From: Comamonas suwonensis
Lineage (GTDB): Bacteria; Pseudomonadota; Gammaproteobacteria; Burkholderiales; Burkholderiaceae_C
Assembly (NCBI RefSeq): GCF_012844455.2
Contig: NZ_JABBCQ020000009.1
Coordinates: forward strand, 124,001-188,000
DNA length: 64,000 bases
Reading direction: 5' to 3'
The number at the start of each line of letters is the position of its first letter. Position 1 is the stretch's first letter. The notes beneath the pieces are model-generated. The model was not told the origin of the DNA. It was given only the letters and a program-made list of their open reading frames with translations, and did not search any database. The position numbers and the translations under genes were made by a program. Shown here in pieces: positions 2,267 to 63,990 of this stretch.

Positions 2267-3766
<1,500 letters not shown>

Positions 3767-16694: not shown

Positions 16695-16765
16695 TACAAG
16701 GCAATTCATCGATCCAAAAGGCTTCAAGCCCAATAAACACAGGCGCAAGCAGCTATCAATTTTGA
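16695..16765. repeat. Copy of the short dispersed repeat
   Basis: AAAAGGCTTCAAGCCCAATA followed by CAGGCGCAAGCAGCTATCAA and TTTTGAG. It matches the GGCTnnAGC...GCGCAAGCAGCTATCAAAA element found at about ten other places in the window. It lies between the FtsX-like permease and the globin gene. Confidence 0.6.
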
Positions 16766-20223: not shown

Positions 20224-21294
20224 ATGAATGCCGCGCCGACCGCCCCTACCCCCGAACTGACCGCCTTTGCCCATGCCATCCCCAAGATGGAACTGCACTG
20301 CCACCTGCTGGGCACCGTTCGAAAAAATACGTTTATCGAGCTGACACAGCGCTCCAAAGCGCCGCTGACGCTGGAAGAGATCGAAGCCTTCTACACCCGC
20401 GGCGAAAAGCCCGTGGGCGTACTGCGTGTGCTCCGCGCCCTCGACCAGTGGCTGCTGCAAACGCCCGCCGATCTGGAGCGCATTACCTACGAGTACCTGC
20501 AAGATGCCGCTGCGCACAACGTGCGCTACGCCGAATTCTTCTGGAACCCCACAGGTACCGTGCAATGCTCTGGAATGAGCTATGCCACGGCTCAGCAGGC
20601 CATTCTGGCGGGCGCTGCCGCAGCGCAAAAAGACTGCGGCATACGTGGGCGACTTGTTCCATCGATTGACCGCGAAGCCCCGCCCGAAGCCGCCGTACAG
20701 ATGGTGCAATGGATGCTGGAGAACCGCCACGATGACGTGCCCGGCATCGGCATCGATTACCGTGAAAACGAACGCCCGCCCGAGCTGTTCCTGGACGCCT
20801 ACGCACTGGCCCGTAAAAATGGACTCAAGACCACGGCCCACGCCAGCGAGTTTGGCCTGCCCTGGAACAATCTTCAGACCGCGGTGGAGCTGCTCAAGGT
20901 CGACCGCATAGACCATGGCTACACCGTCATCGACAACCCCGAGCTGGCCGGGCGCTGTGCCGATCTGGGCATTGTGTTCACCGTCGTCCCCAGCAACTCC
21001 TACTACCTGCGCACACTGGCACCAGAGCGGTGGGCGCTGGACCACCCCATCCGCCAGATGCCCGCCATGGGCATTCGCGTACACCCCAACACCGACGACC
21101 CCACGCTGCACCATATCGACCCCACGGGCGCGTGGACCAAGATGGTCAGCGACTTTGGCTTTTCCATCGCCGATCTCAAAGGATTCATGCTGAACGGCAT
21201 TGATGCAGCGTGGATTGATGACAGCGAAAAACGTGCGCTGCGCCAGCAGTGGAGCACAGAGTTCGATGCGCTGAGCAGCTCAAGCAATATTTAA
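20224..21294 (+). CDS. Adenosine-deaminase-family metal-dependent hydrolase
   Basis: A 356-residue TIM-barrel hydrolase of the ADA superfamily. Metal and catalytic residues are visible: HCH at about 25-27 (KMELHCHLLGT), HASEFG with the catalytic glutamate, RIDHGY with the catalytic histidine, and NTDDP with the metal-binding aspartate. The canonical HxHLDG motif reads HCHLLG, so the aspartate that contacts the ribose 5'-hydroxyl in classical adenosine deaminase is leucine. Adenine deaminase or another aminopurine specificity is therefore possible. Substrate uncertain, fold secure. Confidence 0.88.
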   Translation: MNAAPTAPTPELTAFAHAIPKMELHCHLLGTVRKNTFIELTQRSKAPLTLEEIEAFYTRGEKPVGVLRVLRALDQWLLQTPADLERITYEYLQDAAAHNVRYAEFFWNPTGTVQCSGMSYATAQQAILAGAAAAQKDCGIRGRLVPSIDREAPPEAAVQMVQWMLENRHDDVPGIGIDYRENERPPELFLDAYALARKNGLKTTAHASEFGLPWNNLQTAVELLKVDRIDHGYTVIDNPELAGRCADLGIVFTVVPSNSYYLRTLAPERWALDHPIRQMPAMGIRVHPNTDDPTLHHIDPTGAWTKMVSDFGFSIADLKGFMLNGIDAAWIDDSEKRALRQQWSTEFDALSSSSNI

Positions 21295-21350
21295 GCAAAA
21301 ATGGCTATAGCGCTTTCTCATCAAGCGCTTACAGCTATCAATTTTCAATC
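21295..21350. repeat. Copy of the short dispersed repeat
   Basis: AAAATGGCTATAGCGCTTTC then TCATCAAGCGCTTACAGCTA and TCAATTTTCAA. An imperfect palindrome around AGCGCTT/AAGCGCT of the same family as the other short repeats. Confidence 0.6.
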
Positions 21351-23650: not shown

Positions 23651-23887
23651 CTACGGCTTTGGCCGCAGTTGCTGCTCGTGCAGCTGTAAGGACTCTAGTA
23701 CCAAGGGCAACAACTGCTGTGCCTGCTGCTCATCGCTCAGCGCATCCAGAAGACGCAGCCGCATGCGCGGGTCCCAGAACTTCTGGATGTGCAGTGCAAT
23801 GCCCTCCAGCGCCTCCTCACGATCCGGGATGGAAACAAAAAATTCACCAATACGGTTCGCCATGCGGATCAGGTTGCTCACATCCAT
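23651..23887 (-). CDS. fdsD: NAD-dependent formate dehydrogenase delta subunit
   Basis: A 78-residue protein starting MDVSNLIRMANRIGEFF, with the family's LIRMANQIG-type N-terminus and HIQKFWDPRMRLRLL. The delta subunit is needed for assembly or stability of the molybdenum formate dehydrogenase complex of Cupriavidus and Rhodobacter. Its ATG overlaps the last base of the fdsA stop (TAATG), a sign of coupled translation. Confidence 0.92.
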   Translation of the reverse strand: MDVSNLIRMANRIGEFFVSIPDREEALEGIALHIQKFWDPRMRLRLLDALSDEQQAQQLLPLVLESLQLHEQQLRPKP

Positions 23888-26787
23888 TACAGCGCTCCTG
23901 CCTCAACCTGAGCGGCCGCCAAATGGCTCAGTTGCTCCTCGTTGAACTGCGCATAGCCACGCTGCCAGCTGGATGGCTGAGCCACCGGCAGAACCTGCAC
24001 CGCCGTCACCTTGTACTCGGGGCAATTGGTGGCCCAGTCAGAGCTGTCGGTGGTGATCACGTTGGCACCAGATTCAGGGAAGTGGAAGGTGGTGTAGACC
24101 ACGCCGGGCTGAATGCGCTCGGTTACCGTGGCGCGCAGCACCGTATGACCGGCACGGCTTTCGATACCCACCCAGTCGCCGTCGCGCACGCCGCGATCCT
24201 CGGCATCATGGGGATGAATCTCCAGCCGGTCTTCGCTATGCCAATGGCTGTTGGCCGTGCGCCGCGTCTGCGCCCCCACGTTGTACTGCGAGAGGATGCG
24301 CCCAGTGGTCAGCAGCAGCGGAAAGCGCTGAGTGACTTTTTCCTCGGTCGCCACATACTGGGTGATGATGAAGCGGCCCTTGCCACGCACAAATTGATCC
24401 TTGTGCATGATGTCCGTACCCGCCTCTTCGGTGGCCTCGTTGCACGGCCATTGAACGCTGCCCAGCCGCTCGATCTTTTCATAGCTCACGCCTGCAAATG
24501 TGGGCGTGAGCGCGGCAATCTCGGTCATGATTTCTTGGGGGTGACCGTAGTTCATGGGGTAGCCCAGCGCATTCGAGAGCAGCTGCGTCACTTCCCAGTC
24601 GGCGTAGCCGGCCAGCGGCTGCATGAGTTGGGTCACGCGCGAAATACGGCGCTCGGCATTGGTGAAGGTGCCGTCTTTTTCCATGAAGGACGAGCCAGGC
24701 AAAAATACATGGGCGTATTTGGCGGTCTCGTTAAGGAAGATGTCCTGCACCACCACGCATTCCATGGACGCCAGCGCGGCCGTCACATGCTGGGTATTGG
24801 GATCAGACTGAACAATGTCTTCGCCCTCGCAGTACAGGCCCAGAAAGCTGCCACCCAGCGCCGCTTCAAACATATTGGGTATGCGCAAACCGGGTTCAGG
24901 GTTCAGCGGCACGCCCCATGCGGCTTCAAACTCGGCGCGCGTCGTGCTGTCCGAGATATGACGGTAGCCAGGCAGCTCATGCGGAAAGCTACCCATATCG
25001 CAAGAGCCCTGCACATTGTTCTGGCCTCGCAGCGGGTTCACGCCTACACCTTCACGCCCCACATTGCCCGTAGCCATGGCCAGATTGGCAATGCCCATGA
25101 CCATGGTCGAGCCTTGTGCATGCTCGGTCACGCCCAGCCCGTAGTAGATGGCGGCGTTGACTGGCTTACCTGCTGGATGGTCGTGCGCGCCCAGCGCATA
25201 CAGGCGGGCTGCGCCGCGCACCAGATCGGGGGCGACACCGGTAATTTCTGCCGTGGCTTCTGGGGAGTTTTCGGGTCGGGCCACAAACTCCTTCCACTGC
25301 AGGAATGATTTGGCCTCGCAACGCTCGGCGATGTATCCATCGGACAGCAAGCCCTCCGTCACGATCACATGGGCCAGCGCGGTAATCATGGCCACATTGG
25401 TGCCGGGCCTGAGCTGCAGGTGGTAATCGGCCTGAATGTGGGGCGAGCTGACCAGTTCGATCTCGCGTGGGTCGATCACGATGAGTTTGGCACCTGCGCG
25501 CAGGCGTTTCTTCATGCGCGAACCAAACACCGGATGCGCCGCCGTGGGATTGGCACCTATGACCAGGATGACATCGGACTGTTCCACTGACTTGAAGGTC
25601 TGCGTGCCCGCCGATGTGCCATAGGTCTGACCCAGGCCATAGCCCGTGGGCGAGTGGCAGACGCGGGCGCAGGTATCGACGTTGTTGTTGCCAAAGGCCG
25701 CACGGATCAGCTTTTGCACCAGATAGGTTTCCTCATTGGTGCAGCGCGAGGAGGTGATGCCGCCAATAGAATCCTTGCCATGTTGGGCCTGTATGCGGCG
25801 GAACTCGCTGGCCGCATGGCCGATGGCCTCTTCCCAGCTCACTTCCCGCCACGGGTCACTGATCTTGGCGCGAATCATGGGCTGGGTGATGCGGTCCTTG
25901 TGCGTGGCATAGCCCCAGGCAAAGCGGCCCTTGACGCAGGCATGACCCTCGTTGGCCTTGCCGTCCTTCCACGGCACCATGCGCACGACTTGCTCGCCCT
26001 TCATCTCGACCTTGAAGCCGCAGCCCACGCCGCAGTAGGCGCAAGTGGTGATCTCGCTGTGTTCGCTCTGGCCCAGCTCCACCACGGTTTTTTCCTGCAG
26101 CGTGGCTGTGGGGCAGGCCTGCACGCAGGCGCCGCAGCTCACGCAGTCGCTGTCCATGAAGCCATCGCCCTGGCCGGCCGTAATGCGCGACTCAAAGCCG
26201 CGCCCCGTGATCGTCAGCGCAAACGTGCCCTGCGTCTCTTCGCAGGCGCGCACGCAGCGATTGCAGACAATGCACTTGCTGGGGTCGTAATTGAAATAAG
26301 GGTTGGAGGTATCGACCGCTGCCTTGGCTTCGTCCTTGAAGTGATTGGCACCATCCATGCCATAGCGCACCTCGCGCAGGCCCACCACGCCCGCCATGTC
26401 CTGCAGCTCGCAGTCACCATTGGACGAGCAGGTCAGGCAATCCAGCGGATGGTCGGAGATATACAGCTCCATCACCCCCTTGCGCAGCTCCTGCAGCCTC
26501 GGGCTCTGGGTCTTGACCTTCATGCCGGCCTCGGCCGGTGTAGTGCAGGAGGCCGGAAAGCCTTTGCGCCCCTCGATCTGCACCAGACACAGACGGCAGG
26601 ACCCAAAGGGCTCCAGCGAATCCGTGGCACAGAGCTTGGGCACTTTAATGCCGCCATCGACCGCTGCGCGCATCAGCGATGTGCCTTTGGGCACGGTGAC
26701 TTCGCGCCCGTCAATCTGCAGCGTGACCAGTTCCTCAGACAGGCTGATGGGAGTGCCAGAATCGGTATTCTTTAGATGTTCCAACAT
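23887..26787 (-). CDS. fdsA: NAD-dependent formate dehydrogenase alpha (catalytic, molybdopterin) subunit
   Basis: A 966-residue cytosolic subunit that oxidises formate to CO2. It begins with a [2Fe-2S] ferredoxin-like domain (SCRLCLVQIEGRKGFPASC, about 55-75), then a His/Cys cluster and two [4Fe-4S] ferredoxin motifs (CIVCNRCVRACEE; CVSCGACVQACP), then the Mo-bis-MGD domains. In the latter, the CAYCGVGCGF cluster motif and the RVCHSPTGYG segment, holding the metal-ligand cysteine, are visible. Length matches Rhodobacter and Cupriavidus FdsA. It follows fdsGB after 12 bases. The maturation factor gene fdsC (FdhD-type), usually between fdsA and fdsD, is absent here. Confidence 0.96.
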   Translation of the reverse strand: MLEHLKNTDSGTPISLSEELVTLQIDGREVTVPKGTSLMRAAVDGGIKVPKLCATDSLEPFGSCRLCLVQIEGRKGFPASCTTPAEAGMKVKTQSPRLQELRKGVMELYISDHPLDCLTCSSNGDCELQDMAGVVGLREVRYGMDGANHFKDEAKAAVDTSNPYFNYDPSKCIVCNRCVRACEETQGTFALTITGRGFESRITAGQGDGFMDSDCVSCGACVQACPTATLQEKTVVELGQSEHSEITTCAYCGVGCGFKVEMKGEQVVRMVPWKDGKANEGHACVKGRFAWGYATHKDRITQPMIRAKISDPWREVSWEEAIGHAASEFRRIQAQHGKDSIGGITSSRCTNEETYLVQKLIRAAFGNNNVDTCARVCHSPTGYGLGQTYGTSAGTQTFKSVEQSDVILVIGANPTAAHPVFGSRMKKRLRAGAKLIVIDPREIELVSSPHIQADYHLQLRPGTNVAMITALAHVIVTEGLLSDGYIAERCEAKSFLQWKEFVARPENSPEATAEITGVAPDLVRGAARLYALGAHDHPAGKPVNAAIYYGLGVTEHAQGSTMVMGIANLAMATGNVGREGVGVNPLRGQNNVQGSCDMGSFPHELPGYRHISDSTTRAEFEAAWGVPLNPEPGLRIPNMFEAALGGSFLGLYCEGEDIVQSDPNTQHVTAALASMECVVVQDIFLNETAKYAHVFLPGSSFMEKDGTFTNAERRISRVTQLMQPLAGYADWEVTQLLSNALGYPMNYGHPQEIMTEIAALTPTFAGVSYEKIERLGSVQWPCNEATEEAGTDIMHKDQFVRGKGRFIITQYVATEEKVTQRFPLLLTTGRILSQYNVGAQTRRTANSHWHSEDRLEIHPHDAEDRGVRDGDWVGIESRAGHTVLRATVTERIQPGVVYTTFHFPESGANVITTDSSDWATNCPEYKVTAVQVLPVAQPSSWQRGYAQFNEEQLSHLAAAQVEAGAL

Positions 26788-26799
26788 GGTGCTCTCTCC

Positions 26800-28932
26800 T
26801 CAGACGGGCATGGCGGCTGGCGCGGACTCGATGCCGAAGTCCTGCGGATAGTGGGTGAGCGCCGAGCGCACCGGATAAGGCGTCATGCCCCCCATGGCGC
26901 ACATGCTGCCGCCCTCCATGGTGTCGCACAGGCTTTCCAGCAGCGCGACATTGGCTGCGTGCGCAGCGCCTTGATTGGTGGTGATGCGGTCAATGACTTC
27001 CACCCCACGGGTCGAGCCTATGCGGCAGGGCGTGCATTTTCCACAGGACTCGATGGCACAGAACTCCATGGCATAACGCGCCAGCCGGGCCATATTGGCC
27101 GCATCGTCATGCACCACCAGGCCACCATGGCCCACCACATTGCCCTTGGCCGCATAGGTTTCGTAGTCCAGCGGATCATCCCAGTCGGCAGGTGCCACAT
27201 AGCTGCCCAGCGGGCCGCCCACCTGAATCGCCTTGACGGGTCGACCTGTGGCCGTGCCGCCACCAAAATCTTCGACCAGTGCGCGCAAGCTCAGGCCAAA
27301 GGCTTTTTCCACCAGTCCGCCGCGCGCGATATTGCCTGCGATCTGAAACGGCAAGGTGCCGCGCGAGCGGCCCATGCCAAAGCCCTGATAAAAGGCCGCG
27401 CCCTTGGCCAGAATCACGGGCACGGTGGCCAGCGTGATCACATTGTTGATCACCGTGGGTTGGCCAAACAGACCTTCAATGGCCGGTAGCGGCGGCTTGG
27501 CCCGCACAATGCCGCGCTTGCCTTCAATGCTCTCCAGCATGGCGGTTTCTTCACCGCAGACATAGCTGCCCGCACCTTTTCGCACTTGCAGATAAAACGC
27601 CCGGCCGCTGCCCGCCACATTGCCGCCCAGCCAGCCCGCAGCGCTGGCGCGGGCAATGGCTTCTTTCAGCGTGGCAATGGCATGCGGATACTCGCTGCGC
27701 ACATAGATATAGCCCTGGGTCGCACCCACGGCCAGCGCGGCAATCGCCATGCCTTCGATCAGGCAGAACGGGTCGCCTTCCATCAACAGGCGGTCGGCAA
27801 ACGTGCCGGAATCACCTTCGTCGGCGTTGCATGCAATGTATTTCTGCGAACCAGCTGCAGCGGCAACCGTCTTCCATTTGATGCCGGCCGGAAACGCCGC
27901 GCCACCGCGCCCGCGCAGGCCCGAGTCCAGTACCTGCTGAACGATGGTTTCAGCTGCCATGGTCGCTGCAGCCTGCAGACCTTGCCAGCCGCCATGGGCA
28001 GCATAGTCCGCCAGGCTCAGCGGATCAATCACTCCCACGCGGGCAAAAGTGAGGCGTTCCTGACTTGCCAGATAGGGGATTTGCTCGGTCAAACCATGAC
28101 ATAGCGCATGCGGCAAGCCTTGCAGCAGACCGGCATCCAGCAAGCCGGGCACATCGGCCGCGCTGACCGGGCCATAGGCCACGCGGCCTTGGGCGGTCTC
28201 GACTTCGACCAAGGCTTCCAGCCACAGCAGACCGCGCGAGCCATTGCGCACCAGCTCGACAGGCAGGCCGCGCACCGCGCACTCTTCGGTCAGCGCACGG
28301 GCTACAGCATCAGCCCCAACAGCCAACGCAGCGGCATCGCGCGGCACATAGATGCGTACGGCTTCCACTCCTGCTTTAATAGCTTCCTGCGCTTTATCCA
28401 TAAGCACTAAAGCCGGTTTTGACTTCAAATCCTGCAGCAATGCATCGAGCTTGACCGGTGTGAGGTGGGCATGAGCCTCCACCTCGTTGACCATGAGTGC
28501 GGGCGACTGGGCACACAGACCCAGGCAGTACACGGGCTCCAGCGTCACGCAGCCATCGGCCGTGGTTTCATGAACCTTGCAGCCCAGCGCGACTTCGGCA
28601 TGGGCCAGCAGCGCATCGCTGCCGCGTGACTGGCAGGATTCGGCTCGGCAGATCTGAATCAGGGTCTGTCCATGGGGCTGCTCGCGCAGATGGGGGTAGT
28701 AGCTGATGACGCCATGCACCTCGGCCCGCGAGAGCTTGAAGGCGTCGGCAATCAGCGGCACGGCGGCGCGCGGAATAAAGCCCAGCGCGTGCTGTACGGC
28801 ATGCAGCAGGGGCAGCAAGCCGCCGGGTTCGCCGGAAAAACGCGCCAGCGCGTGGTTCAGCGCTTCTGCTTGTTTGGTGCTTAGCTTTTGCGGCGCAAGC
28901 TGGGCCAGCGGCACGGTTTTTTCAGGGGGCAT
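26800..28932 (-). CDS. fdsB: Fused gamma-beta subunit of NAD-dependent formate dehydrogenase (FdsG-FdsB)
   Basis: A 710-residue diaphorase protein. Residues 1-165 are a NuoE/FdsG-like [2Fe-2S] thioredoxin fold with cluster cysteines C95, C100, C136 and C140 (ICRAESC; VYCLGLC). From about residue 190 (VRIYVPRDAAALAVGADAV) a complete NuoF/FdsB-like domain follows, with GRGGAAFPAGIKW and CNADEGDSGTFADR for NADH/FMN and ESCGKCTPCRIGS for the [4Fe-4S] cluster. In Cupriavidus and Rhodobacter these are separate fdsG and fdsB genes. The linker (about 170-190) is encoded by a copy of the short dispersed repeat. An internal ATG (M178) in the linker could still start a separate beta chain. Confidence 0.93.
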   Translation of the reverse strand: MPPEKTVPLAQLAPQKLSTKQAEALNHALARFSGEPGGLLPLLHAVQHALGFIPRAAVPLIADAFKLSRAEVHGVISYYPHLREQPHGQTLIQICRAESCQSRGSDALLAHAEVALGCKVHETTADGCVTLEPVYCLGLCAQSPALMVNEVEAHAHLTPVKLDALLQDLKSKPALVLMDKAQEAIKAGVEAVRIYVPRDAAALAVGADAVARALTEECAVRGLPVELVRNGSRGLLWLEALVEVETAQGRVAYGPVSAADVPGLLDAGLLQGLPHALCHGLTEQIPYLASQERLTFARVGVIDPLSLADYAAHGGWQGLQAAATMAAETIVQQVLDSGLRGRGGAAFPAGIKWKTVAAAAGSQKYIACNADEGDSGTFADRLLMEGDPFCLIEGMAIAALAVGATQGYIYVRSEYPHAIATLKEAIARASAAGWLGGNVAGSGRAFYLQVRKGAGSYVCGEETAMLESIEGKRGIVRAKPPLPAIEGLFGQPTVINNVITLATVPVILAKGAAFYQGFGMGRSRGTLPFQIAGNIARGGLVEKAFGLSLRALVEDFGGGTATGRPVKAIQVGGPLGSYVAPADWDDPLDYETYAAKGNVVGHGGLVVHDDAANMARLARYAMEFCAIESCGKCTPCRIGSTRGVEVIDRITTNQGAAHAANVALLESLCDTMEGGSMCAMGGMTPYPVRSALTHYPQDFGIESAPAAMPV
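28366..28430. repeat. Short dispersed repeat copy inside the fdsG-fdsB fusion seam
   Basis: On the minus strand it reads GAAGTCAAAACCGGCTTTAG, TGCTTATGGATAAAGCGC and AGGAAGCTATTAAAG in order. This matches the intergenic repeat, for example GGCGCTTACGCATAAAGCGC followed by AGCTATCAAA near 44655. It is the only copy noticed inside a reading frame and encodes the linker between the two fused domains. Confidence 0.65.
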
Positions 28933-29044: not shown

Positions 29045-29983
29045 TCAAGCGCGGTCCCGCACCGCCCCGGCAAAGCGCGTGCATTGCTCACGCCACTGCG
29101 TGGTTTCCATCAAGGCCATGGCCGCCAACAGGGCGCGGGTAGCTGTGTCCTTGGGTTGTGTCAGAAAGGCAATCGCCGTCTGCACCTGGGGCGAAATCAG
29201 CGGGCGCACGTTCAGCGCCGCCGCTTCTGGCAAGGTGGCGACCAGCGCACCAGGCAGCACGCTGTACAGGCCGCCATCGCTGACGGCCATCATCAGACTC
29301 AGCACAGAATTGGTTTCCATGGCGGCGCTGACTTCGCAGCCTGCCGTTTGGAAGCTCTGGTCCACGATCAGGCGGTTATGCATATCAGGCGTCAAAAGGC
29401 ATAGCGGCAACTTGGCGGCCTGCGCCCACTTGACAGGTTTTTGACTGGATTTTTCAGTCGCAGGACTGAGCAGAAAGTAATGTTCCTGGTACTGCGGCCA
29501 GACGCTGATGCGAGCGCTCTCCCGCGCAAGCAAGCGGTCACTGTATCCCAGCGCCAGATCCAGCGACAGGTCTTCCAGACCGGTTTCAATCTCCAGCGAA
29601 CTCAGGGACAGCACCATGGGCGTGATGCCCGGATGCTGGGCACGCAACAGCGCGGCAAAGCGGGTCAGCATGGGCATGGCCGTAGGCACGGCAGCCATGC
29701 GCAAACGGCCTTTGAGCTGACCGGCCCCCACGCTCAGGTCCTGGCGCAAGGCCTCTTCGGCCTTGAGCATGGACAGCGCCGTGGCCAGCACCTGCTCGCC
29801 TTCGGGCGTCAGCCCGCCAAAGACGCGACCACGTCGCACGATGACCGCGCCAAACTCGGCCTCCAGCGCTCTGAGCGCATTGGACAGTGCAGGTTGCGTG
29901 ATATGGCAGGCCTGCGCCGCCCTTGCGAAATGGCGGTGCTCGTTGAGCGCCACCAGATAACGCATGGAGGTCAGCAGGTTCAT
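29045..29983 (-). CDS. LysR-family regulator of the formate dehydrogenase cluster (FdsR-like)
   Basis: A 312-residue LTTR with an N-terminal winged helix (MRYLVALNEHRHFARAAQACHITQPALSNALRALEAEFG, about 7-45) and a substrate-binding domain. It lies directly upstream of fdsGBAD on the same strand, about 110 bp away, so it is the likely regulator; Cupriavidus FdsR, which is divergently placed, does this job. Its start overlaps the apbC stop by one base (TGATG), so it may be co-transcribed with apbC. Formate or a related effector is an inference. Confidence 0.85.
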   Translation of the reverse strand: MNLLTSMRYLVALNEHRHFARAAQACHITQPALSNALRALEAEFGAVIVRRGRVFGGLTPEGEQVLATALSMLKAEEALRQDLSVGAGQLKGRLRMAAVPTAMPMLTRFAALLRAQHPGITPMVLSLSSLEIETGLEDLSLDLALGYSDRLLARESARISVWPQYQEHYFLLSPATEKSSQKPVKWAQAAKLPLCLLTPDMHNRLIVDQSFQTAGCEVSAAMETNSVLSLMMAVSDGGLYSVLPGALVATLPEAAALNVRPLISPQVQTAIAFLTQPKDTATRALLAAMALMETTQWREQCTRFAGAVRDRA

Positions 29984-34984: not shown

Positions 34985-35065
34985 TGACATTCATGGAAGT
35001 CCGGTTGATTTCAGTTTGAAACCCAATGAAATCAAGCGCTATAAGCTATAAAAATAAAAGTATCT
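34985..35065. repeat. Copy of the short dispersed repeat upstream of metG
   Basis: TTTCAGTTTGAAACCCAATG then AAATCAAGCGCTATAAGCTA and TAAAAATAAAAG. It carries the AAGCGC and AGCTAT elements of the short repeat family and lies in the 218-bp gap before metG. Confidence 0.5.
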
Positions 35066-37316: not shown

Positions 37317-37687
37317 TGCCACGCGCGTTATTTGAACAACGCGCAACCAAGCCCCTGCGACTGTTAGCCACAGGGGCTTTTTTGTGCCTGAGTCTCTCCG
37401 GCTGCGCTGTAGTGGCCGTCACCAGTGCCGCCGTCAGCGTGACGGCGGGCGCTGTAGGTCTGGCTGCGGATGCCGCCATTGGCACGGCCAAAATAGTGGG
37501 CAAAGGCGTGGGCAAAGCCGCCGATGCGCTGATGGATGACGACAAGCCCGGTATCAGTGACAGCAGCGGCGTGAATATTCGCTACCGCGACTCGGCTAGT
37601 CCGTCTGCCATGTCGACTGAAACACCGGCACCAGCGGCCACGGCAACACCGGTGACCCCACCGTCTGTCATTCAGCCTGAATATTGA
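37316..37687 (+). CDS. Small lipoprotein coupled to metG
   Basis: A 123-residue exported protein. The signal region is LLATGAFLCLSLSGC with a lipobox cysteine at about residue 29. It is followed by an alanine/glycine/valine-rich amphipathic stretch (about 30-60, AVSVTAGAVGLAADAAIGTA) and a proline/threonine/alanine-rich tail. Such NF-type small lipoproteins are found next to metG in related bacteria; no function is known. The start overlaps the metG stop (TGATG), and an intrinsic terminator follows. Confidence 0.75.
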   Translation: MPRALFEQRATKPLRLLATGAFLCLSLSGCAVVAVTSAAVSVTAGAVGLAADAAIGTAKIVGKGVGKAADALMDDDKPGISDSSGVNIRYRDSASPSAMSTETPAPAATATPVTPPSVIQPEY

Positions 37688-38092
37688 TAAAACAGGCTAC
37701 AGCTTATGAACATCAACCGCATGAAGCTATTTATTTAATAGCACCATGCGGTTTTTTCATGCCCGTTTTCCTCTACACCGGACACACGCAAGCACATGCG
37801 GATGGCATAACTAAATAACCAATAACTTCCTGTTACACCACTGGGATATAGCGCTATTCAAAACCACTCAACTTCCTAGAATCCAGCACAACTCACTGTG
37901 CTTGCCGCACCCTGGCCCAAAGAATGCCCTGCATTCACCATATACAACAATGGCCACGAACAAGCATCGAGTACATAAGAACTGTTGATACGCCCCTTGA
38001 TACGTTGGCTCTAAGTCTTGCCTCAAACGGGTCATGTCCATCAGCTGTTCTCAATCATCCTGCGCCAGCTGCGCAGAAAACAGGGAGGCCCC
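37688..38092. other. Intergenic region before the sulfur-oxidation locus
   Basis: Its first 70 bases hold a transcription terminator built on the short repeat. The rest is comparatively AT-rich and carries no convincing gene. A short direct repeat TTGATACG occurs twice 12 bp apart at 37985-38004, about 90 bp before the cytochrome gene, and could be an operator, but no known motif is matched. Confidence 0.4.
37716..37757 (+). terminator. Intrinsic terminator after the metG operon
   Basis: Outer stem ACCGCATG/CATGCGGT and inner stem GCTATT/AATAGC, followed by TTTTTT. The inner part resembles the AGCTATT element of the short dispersed repeat. Confidence 0.75.
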
Positions 38093-44459: not shown

Positions 44460-44635
44460 GTCGGGTAAGACAGCAAAATTGGTGCCCAGAGTCTCGATAA
44501 AGACCCAAGGCCAAGCGGCGCGGATAACACCGGGTAACCCCTTAATTTTACGAATGAAGCCATGTCCTGCGCGCATTATTTGCTGCAACGCAACAATTCT
44601 TTGAGGGCTTTTCGACTGATTTCTTTAGGGCTTTT

Positions 44636-44697
44636 TCAAGCTTTTTAGCTGCCTGGCGCTTACGCATAAAGCGCTAATAGCTATCAAAAACAAAGCA
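44636..44697. repeat. Copy of the short dispersed repeat (well preserved)
   Basis: CTTTTTAGCTGCCTGGCGCT, TACGCATAAAGCGC and TAATAGCTATCAAAAACAA. It forms an imperfect hairpin AGCGCTTnnnnnnTAAAGCGCT and is the clearest copy for deriving a consensus. Confidence 0.65.
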
Positions 44698-46130: not shown

Positions 46131-46137
46131 CTCTTCT

Positions 46138-46200
46138 TCAATGAAATCAGCCTCCTGCGCTTATATATCAAGCGCTCTCAGCTCTATATTTCATAGCAAG
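46138..46200. repeat. Copy of the short dispersed repeat before scpA
   Basis: GAAATCAGCCTCCTGCGCTT, ATATATCAAGCGCTCTCAGC and TCTATATTTCATAG; it fills the gap between the DUF3460 gene and scpA and abuts the scpA start. Confidence 0.6.
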
Positions 46201-50574: not shown

Positions 50575-50633
50575 GATTTAAGGAAAAAAATGCCTCTACC
50601 CTATATCCATAAAGCGTAAGAAGCTCTCAAATC
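50575..50633. repeat. Copy of the short dispersed repeat before tapT
   Basis: AATGCCTCTACCCTATATCC and ATAAAGCGTAAGAAGCTCTC immediately before the tapT start; a diverged copy of the family. Confidence 0.45.
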
Positions 50634-62743: not shown

Positions 62744-63070
62744 ATGAACACTAAAGCTGCTCGTTTTAGCCCAGAGGTACGTGAACGTGCCGTACGTTTG
62801 GTGCAGGAATGCCAAGCGGATTACGCATCACTGTGGGGTGCGTGTGAATCGATTGCCCCCAAGATAGGTTGCTCGGTCAGCACCCTGCATGGGTGGGTGC
62901 AGCGCAAAGAAATAGATGCAGGCCAACGGCCAGGGTTGACCACGGATGAACGTGAGCGACTCAAGCAACTGGAGCGAGAGAACAAGGAGCTGCGCCGTGC
63001 CAATGACATCCTCAAGGCTGCGAGCGCTTTTTTTGCGCAGGCGGAGCTGGACCGTCGCATCAAGAGCTAA
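62744..63070 (+). CDS. IS3-family transposase OrfA
   Basis: A 108-residue helix-turn-helix protein ([25 protein letters not shown]...[14 protein letters not shown]) with a leucine-zipper segment ([29 protein letters not shown]). It binds the terminal repeats. Its frame runs into a TTTTTTT run at 63028-63034, where ribosomes can slip back by one base to join the downstream orfB frame. Confidence 0.92.
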
Positions 63071-63990
63071 TTGACTTTGTAGACCAGTATCGCGATGCCT
63101 ATGGGGTCGAGCCAATTTGTAGGCTGCTGCAAATTGCCCCATCGGGCTACAGGCGCAGGGTTCAGCAAAGAAACTGCCCGTGGCTGCGCTGCAAGCGCAG
63201 CCAATCGGATGAAGAACGTTGCAGTCATATTCAACGGGTGTGGCACGCTAATTGGCAGGTGTATGGTGCCGTCAAAGTTTGGAAGCAGATGCACCGAGAA
63301 GGCTTACCCATTGCCCGCTGCACAGTGCAACGCCTGATGCGCAAGCTGGGCCTGGAAGGCGCAAGGCGTGGCAAGAAGGTGCGCACAACCCGTCCAGACA
63401 CAACCAGGCGATGCCCGCTAGACCTGGTCAACCGGCAGTTCAAAGCCCACCGGCCTGACCAACTTTGGGTCGCAGATTTCACCTATGTATCTACATGGCA
63501 AGGGCAGATGTTTGTGGCCTTTGTGATTGATGTGTATGCACGCCGCATATTGGGCTGGCGGGTCAGTAGCCACATGCGCACGGACTTTGTGGTTGATGCG
63601 TTGGAGCAGGCGCTGTATGCAAGGCGGCCTTCAAGTGACACGGAGCTCATTCATCACTCCGACAGGGGCAGTCAGTACGTTTCCATTCGCTACACAGAAC
63701 GTTTAGAAGAAGCTGGCCTGATGCCTTCGGTGGGTAGCACTGGAGATTCCTACGACAACGCTCTGGCCGAAACCATCAACGGACTTTACAAAACGGAGGT
63801 CATCCACAAGCGAGGCCCATGGAAAACAAGGGAATCACTGGAGCTGGCAACGCTGCAATGGGTGCACTGGTTCAACCATGACAGGCTGCTGGAATCCATA
63901 GGGCATATACCGCCAGCGGAAGCTGAGGCAAACTACTGGCGGCAAGTTGCCAATACCGTGCAGGCTAACGCCTGCACTTCAACAAACTAG
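63034..63990 (+). CDS. IS3-family transposase OrfB (DDE catalytic part)
   Basis: The catalytic part in the -1 frame. The integrase-core DDE motif is seen as [16 protein letters not shown] (first D), [10 protein letters not shown] (second D), and [22 protein letters not shown] (E). It has no convincing start codon of its own, so it should be made as an OrfAB fusion by -1 slippage at the T7 run; the position given is the first codon after the slip. The frame is open to the stop at 63988-63990, so the element looks intact. Confidence 0.9.

Follow-up and report, generated by a model that had tools for sequence, protein, structure and literature searches.

In the stretch of Comamonas suwonensis DNA analyzed here (64,000 nucleotides, referred to below as the window), FdsG and FdsB are encoded as a single fused protein, and the two parts meet at a seam formed by an in-frame copy of a short, putatively hairpin-forming repeat that resembles the Rickettsia palindromic elements (RPEs). 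We put the probability of this reading, which comprises all of our best explanation except for the order of events, at roughly 85%. The repeat would be an element of the Comamonadaceae, with many copies outside recognized genes and some copies in frame in the loops and linkers of unrelated proteins.

The fused gene and the repeat at its seam

The 710-codon open reading frame (ORF) encodes the Pfam domains 2Fe-2S_thioredx, Complex1_51K, and NADH_4Fe-4S, in line with the initial annotation, which described its product as a fusion of NuoE-like and NuoF-like proteins; PDB matches of the FdsB part include 6vw7_B and 6tg9_B. With respect to membership in an FdsABGD system, the FdsG and FdsB domains are present, and the neighboring 966-aa and 78-aa ORFs would be FdsA and FdsD (Table 1).

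Table 1. Positions in the window of the fused fdsG-fdsB gene, its neighbors, and the copies of the repeat
Feature	Coordinates	Strand	Basis or score
Fused fdsG-fdsB gene, 710 aa	26800..28932	-	ORF, Pfam domains, PDB matches
FdsG-like part, ~residues 1-166	28435..28932	-	PF01257 at residues 26-170
FdsB-like part, from ~residue 192	26800..28359	-	PF01512 and PF10589; 6vw7_B alignment starts at residue 192
Near full-length repeat copy forming the in-frame FdsG-FdsB linker, ~residues 168-187	28373..28430	-	53.8 bits
ORF, 966 aa (presumably fdsA-like)	23887..26787	-	ORF list
ORF, 78 aa (presumably fdsD-like, going by the fds operon)	23651..23887	-	ORF list
ORF, 312 aa (presumably LysR-type regulator-like)	29045..29983	-	ORF list
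Repeat copy, overlaps a 356-aa ORF (20224-21294) at its end	21287..21344	+	59.3 bits
Repeat copy	50576..50633	+	55.6 bits
Repeat copy, training set	44633..44690	+	55.0 bits
Repeat copy, training set	34998..35055	+	54.1 bits
Repeat copy in or at the end of a 186-aa open frame	16705..16762	+	50.2 bits
Repeat copy within an open frame of 303 aa	54406..54463	+	49.7 bits
Repeat copy	46134..46191	+	41.7 bits
Repeat copy	37679..37736	+	35.0 bits
Repeat copy	3685..3742	+	34.7 bits

The letters given in the initial annotation are indeed present: the seam includes AAGCGC....AGCTAT.AAA, with ~36 nt of repeat-like DNA on the 5' side. Scored from 28430 to 28373 with a 58-column matrix built from 33 copies of the same genome, the seam excluded, this segment reaches 53.8 bits, compared to 41.2 to 72.2 bits for the training copies and a peak of 3.7 bits in random controls (four 64-kb sequences drawn from a dinucleotide model, one strand each). 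The 36 upstream columns, which are independent of how the copies were collected, yield 25.9 bits by themselves versus a random peak of 18.9 bits. The earlier claim that the linker DNA is a copy of the repeat is thus borne out by the score and by the presence of the seam among the 91 pattern copies of the genome (see below), and the genome-wide consensus check proposed at the time places it far above the random peak. A chance likeness, whereby codons of the KAQEAIK type would merely happen to resemble the repeat, could draw on the fact that, among the 87 copies counted (of the total of 91), 39 are open in the frame used at the seam. Against it stand the two scores just given and the common register of the repeat in all 15 Comamonas-type linkers, and we regard such a coincidence as having a negligible probability.

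The consensus of the repeat reads about TTTTGAATCAAAAAGGCCTCAAGCGCTTATCAATCAAGCGCTAGCAGCTATCAAAA, has ~41% GC (counted by hand), and is conserved over columns spanning ~57 nt; the figure of 58 nt is the scoring window of the matrix and not the distance between mapped ends of the element. Single-sequence folds give -12.3 kcal/mol for the consensus and -13.1 kcal/mol for the seam, and in a fold of the same kind a close variant of the consensus is predicted to form a central hairpin. Possible terminal inverted repeats of the MITE type, TTTTGA...TCAAAA, were spotted by eye at the consensus ends. No Rfam family matched the seam at gathering thresholds. Elsewhere in the window, at positions 63025-63141, Rfam recognizes an ALIL pseudoknot (100.9 bits).

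Distribution of the repeat

Scores of 34.7 to 59.3 bits are reached at nine further places in the window (two of these, at 34998 and 44633, come from the training set), in agreement with the initial report of about ten further sites. All nine are on the forward strand; of the ten high-scoring window copies, the fds seam alone is on the reverse strand. In the entire 4.72-Mb genome, the pattern AAGCGCN{2,8}AGCTATNAAA is found in 91 copies, including the seam, 43 of them on the forward and 48 on the reverse strand, and the same pattern read backwards is found in none. At least one copy is present in 42 of the 53 genomes of the genus and in 67 of the 299 family genomes, with 0 or 1 hits per genome in backward-pattern controls. 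Copy numbers per genome of the genus go up to 91, yet 11 of the 53 genomes have no copies at all (G001, G002, G003, G006, G010, G021, G027, G033, G039, G051, and G052), among them the Delftia-type genomes G001, G002, G051, and G052.

By a mechanical test, 29 of the 91 copies fall inside ORFs of at least 100 aa, and at least 10 of these 29, including the seam, are in recognized genes; the remaining 62 copies are presumably intergenic. Twenty-six open frames were translated and nine were chosen by eye for Pfam searches, which recognized nine copy-bearing genes in addition to fdsGB. Their products are PgeF, an Hsp70-like protein with DUF3731, HI0933, DUF5682, an aminopeptidase, PurL, DprA and a GntR-aminotransferase regulator (the last two with the copy located between their two domains and between their domains, respectively), and a DsbD-like protein (L244), a weaker case in which the repeat, read on its reverse strand, seems to supply part of a hydrophobic leader that precedes the domain. 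Forward copies are read in two frames, yielding ..QAQAAIK and ..SASSYQ. In a genome of another genus (G333), 30 of the 180 copies were examined, and in-frame ones were found as well (loci L286, L291, and L294): in PurL, in agreement with the separate search for PurL, and in LpxB-like and acyltransferase-like proteins, which were named by eye.

The copy in PurL (L222 and L256-L282) scores above 10 bits at one and the same position of the gene in 19 of the 27 genomes; six other genera are represented among these, and the copy therefore looks older than the genus. The corresponding segment is 63 to 75 nt long in the 19 carriers, but five low scorers likewise have 63 nt, and G085, G318, and G003 have 48 to 57 nt; because the protein reads APSY or APQY at this site in G003 and G085 too, part of the likeness may be driven by the protein. 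Delftia-type PurL genes keep the 63-nt length with scores of only -17.6 to -21.5 bits and probably contain a decayed copy; their p values (0.014 to 0.03) mean little, since a value of 0.034 was obtained for G318, whose segment is shorter and has no evident copy. The PurL match in G022 (G022:C1:1411332-1413721) is split into two pieces that overlap and differ in frame, reflecting either a frame break or a sequencing error. In DprA (L210 and L313-L339), the linker carries the repeat at more than 24 bits in 11 of 27 genomes, all of them within the genus, and measures 72 to 81 nt with the repeat versus 63 to 186 nt without it. In alignments with PDB entries, PgeF has 48 residues at the site of the copy versus 17 in 1z9t, a gain that lies partly outside the repeat, and HI0933 gains only 4 to 8 residues. 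With PurL and DprA as examples of length gains that are often smaller than the element, lengths do not establish a clean insertion.

Fused and split loci

FdsGB was detected in 19 of the 53 genomes of the genus (18 full-length genes and one cut by a contig end), and all 19 are fused across the seam, with no split loci. The best 80 of at least 567 related named loci comprise 8 fused and 70 split ones, as well as 2 without an FdsG match, so that the split arrangement, which the initial annotation had noted for fdsG and fdsB elsewhere, is indeed the usual state in the sampled relatives. Six of the eight fused loci belong to Comamonas or Delftia (the named ones, which share the same linkers, being from Comamonas testosteroni, a Comamonas sp. 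metagenome-assembled genome [MAG], and Delftia acidovorans); the other two, L080 and L084, lie outside the family and are from a gammaproteobacterial MAG and a Maricaulaceae MAG. In the family search, which covered 299 sampled genomes and judged fusion from match spans rather than from each junction, 70 genomes had a strong FdsGB match. The 67 of these that lie outside the genus contained no uninterrupted FdsG-to-FdsB match; in two of them, G318 and G245, the run-through is broken by a single TGA.

In a tree of FdsB built from 46 chosen rows (42 of them different), a single branch with 100/100 support separates the 20 fused rows from the 26 split ones, which corresponds to one change. The Delftia-type label of L020 and L022 was taken from this tree, in which L023 occupies 31% of the columns. 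In a MetG tree of 29 rows, from which G002 is absent for lack of a match, three Delftia-type genomes branch next to all other sampled members of the genus except G003 (support 100/99). Within the sampled tree, the fusion is a derived state with a single origin, which lies on the stem that Comamonas shares with Delftia.

The linker in Comamonas-type proteins

All 15 Comamonas-type linkers (L005-L018 and L023) carry the repeat in register at 19.3 to 58.7 bits, with an offset of 31 (46 in L007, L013, and L023), and each of them scores higher than all 500 of its shuffles; when only the upstream columns are used, two are weak (L009, with a p value of 0.048, and L023, with 0.13). One copy in a common register forms the linker in every scored Comamonas-type FdsGB, and we infer that it was in place by the Comamonas stem.

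Across 14 Comamonas-type genes, identity over residues 168-185 is 0.57, 0.75, and 0.67 at the first, second, and third codon positions, compared to gene medians of 0.92, 0.95, and 0.69, respectively, so that the linker diverges at all codon positions at about the synonymous rate. When the mean of the first two positions is subtracted from the third, the windows starting at residues 164-174 are the top eleven of 692. Going by this codon-level divergence, the linker is under little protein-level constraint and would be a tolerated spacer that diverges near the rate of synonymous sites. Conservation at the DNA level had seemed conceivable, as third-base identity at codons for the same amino acid looked raised, but the windows show a loss of codon-position bias instead. 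The likely role of the linker would be that of a passive tether that holds the 2Fe-2S half to the FMN/4Fe-4S half within one ~75-kDa chain. An AlphaFold model proved too poor to serve as evidence of linker flexibility (mean pLDDT of 56.5, with residues 172-189 below 50). The initial annotation had also pointed to an internal ATG at M178 from which a separate beta chain could restart. Codon 178 is ATG, but it is so in only 2 of the 14 aligned Comamonas-type genes, neither of which has Shine-Dalgarno (SD)-like pairing with it, and the restart is not supported; where SD-like motifs do pair with in-frame starts, in L006 and L022, the codons involved are different ones.

Order of events

It was originally proposed that insertion of the repeat had itself created the fusion. 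Three elements of that proposal hold, namely that the linker is a repeat, that the split arrangement is usual, and that the fusion is derived; causation does not follow, as Delftia-type genes are fused without a visible repeat. Entry of the repeat after the fusion appears slightly likelier than a causal role: the genes would have been fused by an unrelated change, and part of the linker would have been taken over or replaced by the repeat afterwards, along the Comamonas stem, a sequence of events that we consider about an even bet. It is favored by the Delftia-type fusions, by the in-frame copies in several other proteins of the genome, and by the overlap in DprA linker lengths with and without the repeat. 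Given that ordinary proteins host in-frame copies as well, late entry of the repeat into an already existing linker is at least as plausible. Single chains that combine FdsB and FdsG also exist elsewhere, as in the beta subunit of MeFDH1 according to the available text of PMC10869683. The difficulty lies in the lengths: the linker DNA outside the 58-nt window amounts to 14 to 32 nt in Comamonas, which is the size of split spacers, versus 60 to 81 nt for Delftia-type linkers, so that a fusion that came first would require replacement or deletion.

The same lengths lend themselves to a different scenario, in which the repeat would have landed on an overlapping fdsG stop and fdsB start before Comamonas and Delftia diverged. 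It would have eliminated the stop codon, changed the reading frame, and provided the linker, with Delftia losing the letters of the repeat later; we rate this scenario at somewhat less than an even chance. In an outgroup set of 101 loci (99 of them usable, with the fused L080 and L084 included and the loci of some genomes present twice), the spacer between the FdsG and FdsB anchors is most commonly 23 nt and is 17 to 47 nt in 87 loci; 87 of the 99 are in frame +2. Since 58 nt equals 1 modulo 3, an insertion of this length into a 23-nt spacer in frame +2 would restore the frame, and L007 and L023 have linkers of exactly 81 nt (23 plus 58), as do the Delftia-type L020 and L021. However, 58 nt is only a scoring window, and the DprA linker can host the repeat without becoming longer, a control after which linker length was no longer taken to prove a causal repeat.

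For a causal repeat, the Delftia-type linkers are the main obstacle. With the matrix, none of the four contains a recognizable repeat (-32.6 to -47.6 bits; p values of 0.06 to 0.52), and in the homologous register each of the four pairs has 18 of 59 matches, as do shuffles. Whole-linker alignments of Delftia with Comamonas that include the FdsG tail do reach p values of <0.05 in 9 of 20 cases (one of five positive controls within Comamonas failed, with a p value of 0.10), but with the tail removed this is true of only 5 of 64 alignments and of none of the four against the consensus. The matrix test is itself weak. When Delftia is compared with Comamonas, third codon positions have an identity of 0.54 in FdsG and 0.64 in FdsB, and simulated copies were recovered in 25 of 60 cases at an identity of 0.54 or 0.58, in 41 of 60 at 0.64, and in 7 of 60 at 0.45, which amounts to a low power of 42 to 68% at the relevant identities. 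Decay of the repeat in the Delftia linker is possible in view of the low scores of the probably decayed Delftia PurL copies; as a positive identification, a decayed repeat in this linker was rejected, at this low power, given the absence of signal in the homologous register and the alignments without the tail. A fuller account would be tentative, its odds being a shade worse than even: a short palindromic repeat that fell on the overlapping stop and start joined the two subunit genes and became their linker, the fusion was kept in all sampled members of the genus that have Fds, and the same repeat writes new linker peptides into conserved proteins of the Comamonadaceae.

Comparison with known systems

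A literature search, with most subscription journals outside its reach, found no evident description of this repeat and, judged by titles and the beginnings of abstracts, no description of a Comamonas fdsGB fusion. In the available text of PMC7171172 and PMC13335904, FdsB and FdsG are spoken of as separate. The beta subunit of the Methylobacterium extorquens MeFDH1, like Comamonas FdsGB, is a single chain equivalent to FdsG plus FdsB; unlike it, this subunit is said, in the part of PMC10869683 available to us, to be without the N-terminal domain of FdsB.

Several families of small bacterial repeats share features with the one described here. The REP elements are small palindromes, some of which lie wholly inside ORFs (PMC3733652, available text), as some copies of this repeat do, but inspection by eye revealed none of their GTAG/CGTC tags at either end of our consensus. 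BRE, as described in PMC3110155, is likewise a short repeat that occurs in Comamonadaceae and has some of its copies within coding sequences. It is ~90 bp long, has 69% GC in Bordetella, and is present in 13 copies in Delftia acidovorans SPH-1, whereas our repeat has ~41% GC and no pattern copies in the four Delftia-type genomes; judged by these descriptions, identity of the two is not supported. The enterobacterial repeats ERIC/RU-1, RU-2, and RU-3 also contribute open frames that continue in frame into genes, with the loss of a stop codon in one case, but they are larger (103 to 168 bp) and come from other hosts (PMC2759123).

The closest parallel is provided by the RPEs (Ogata et al. 2000), dispersed hairpin repeats of 105 to 146 bp that are found both between genes and in frame in unrelated proteins, according to the available portions of PMC2229807 and PMC10969869. 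The repeat described here is similarly dispersed and occurs, apparently, between genes as well as in frame in unrelated conserved proteins; a hairpin is suggested by single-sequence folds. It differs from the RPEs, in a comparison of descriptions, in being only ~57 nt long, in its betaproteobacterial host, in a PurL copy that spans genera, and in having one copy at a fusion seam. In-frame insertion of repeats into proteins is best known from Rickettsia; in a free-living, cultivable group with at least 10 such proteins in one genome, the effects of the inserts would be directly testable. One of these insertions, that in PurL, is shared between genera, and the fds case may represent an additional route to gene fusion.
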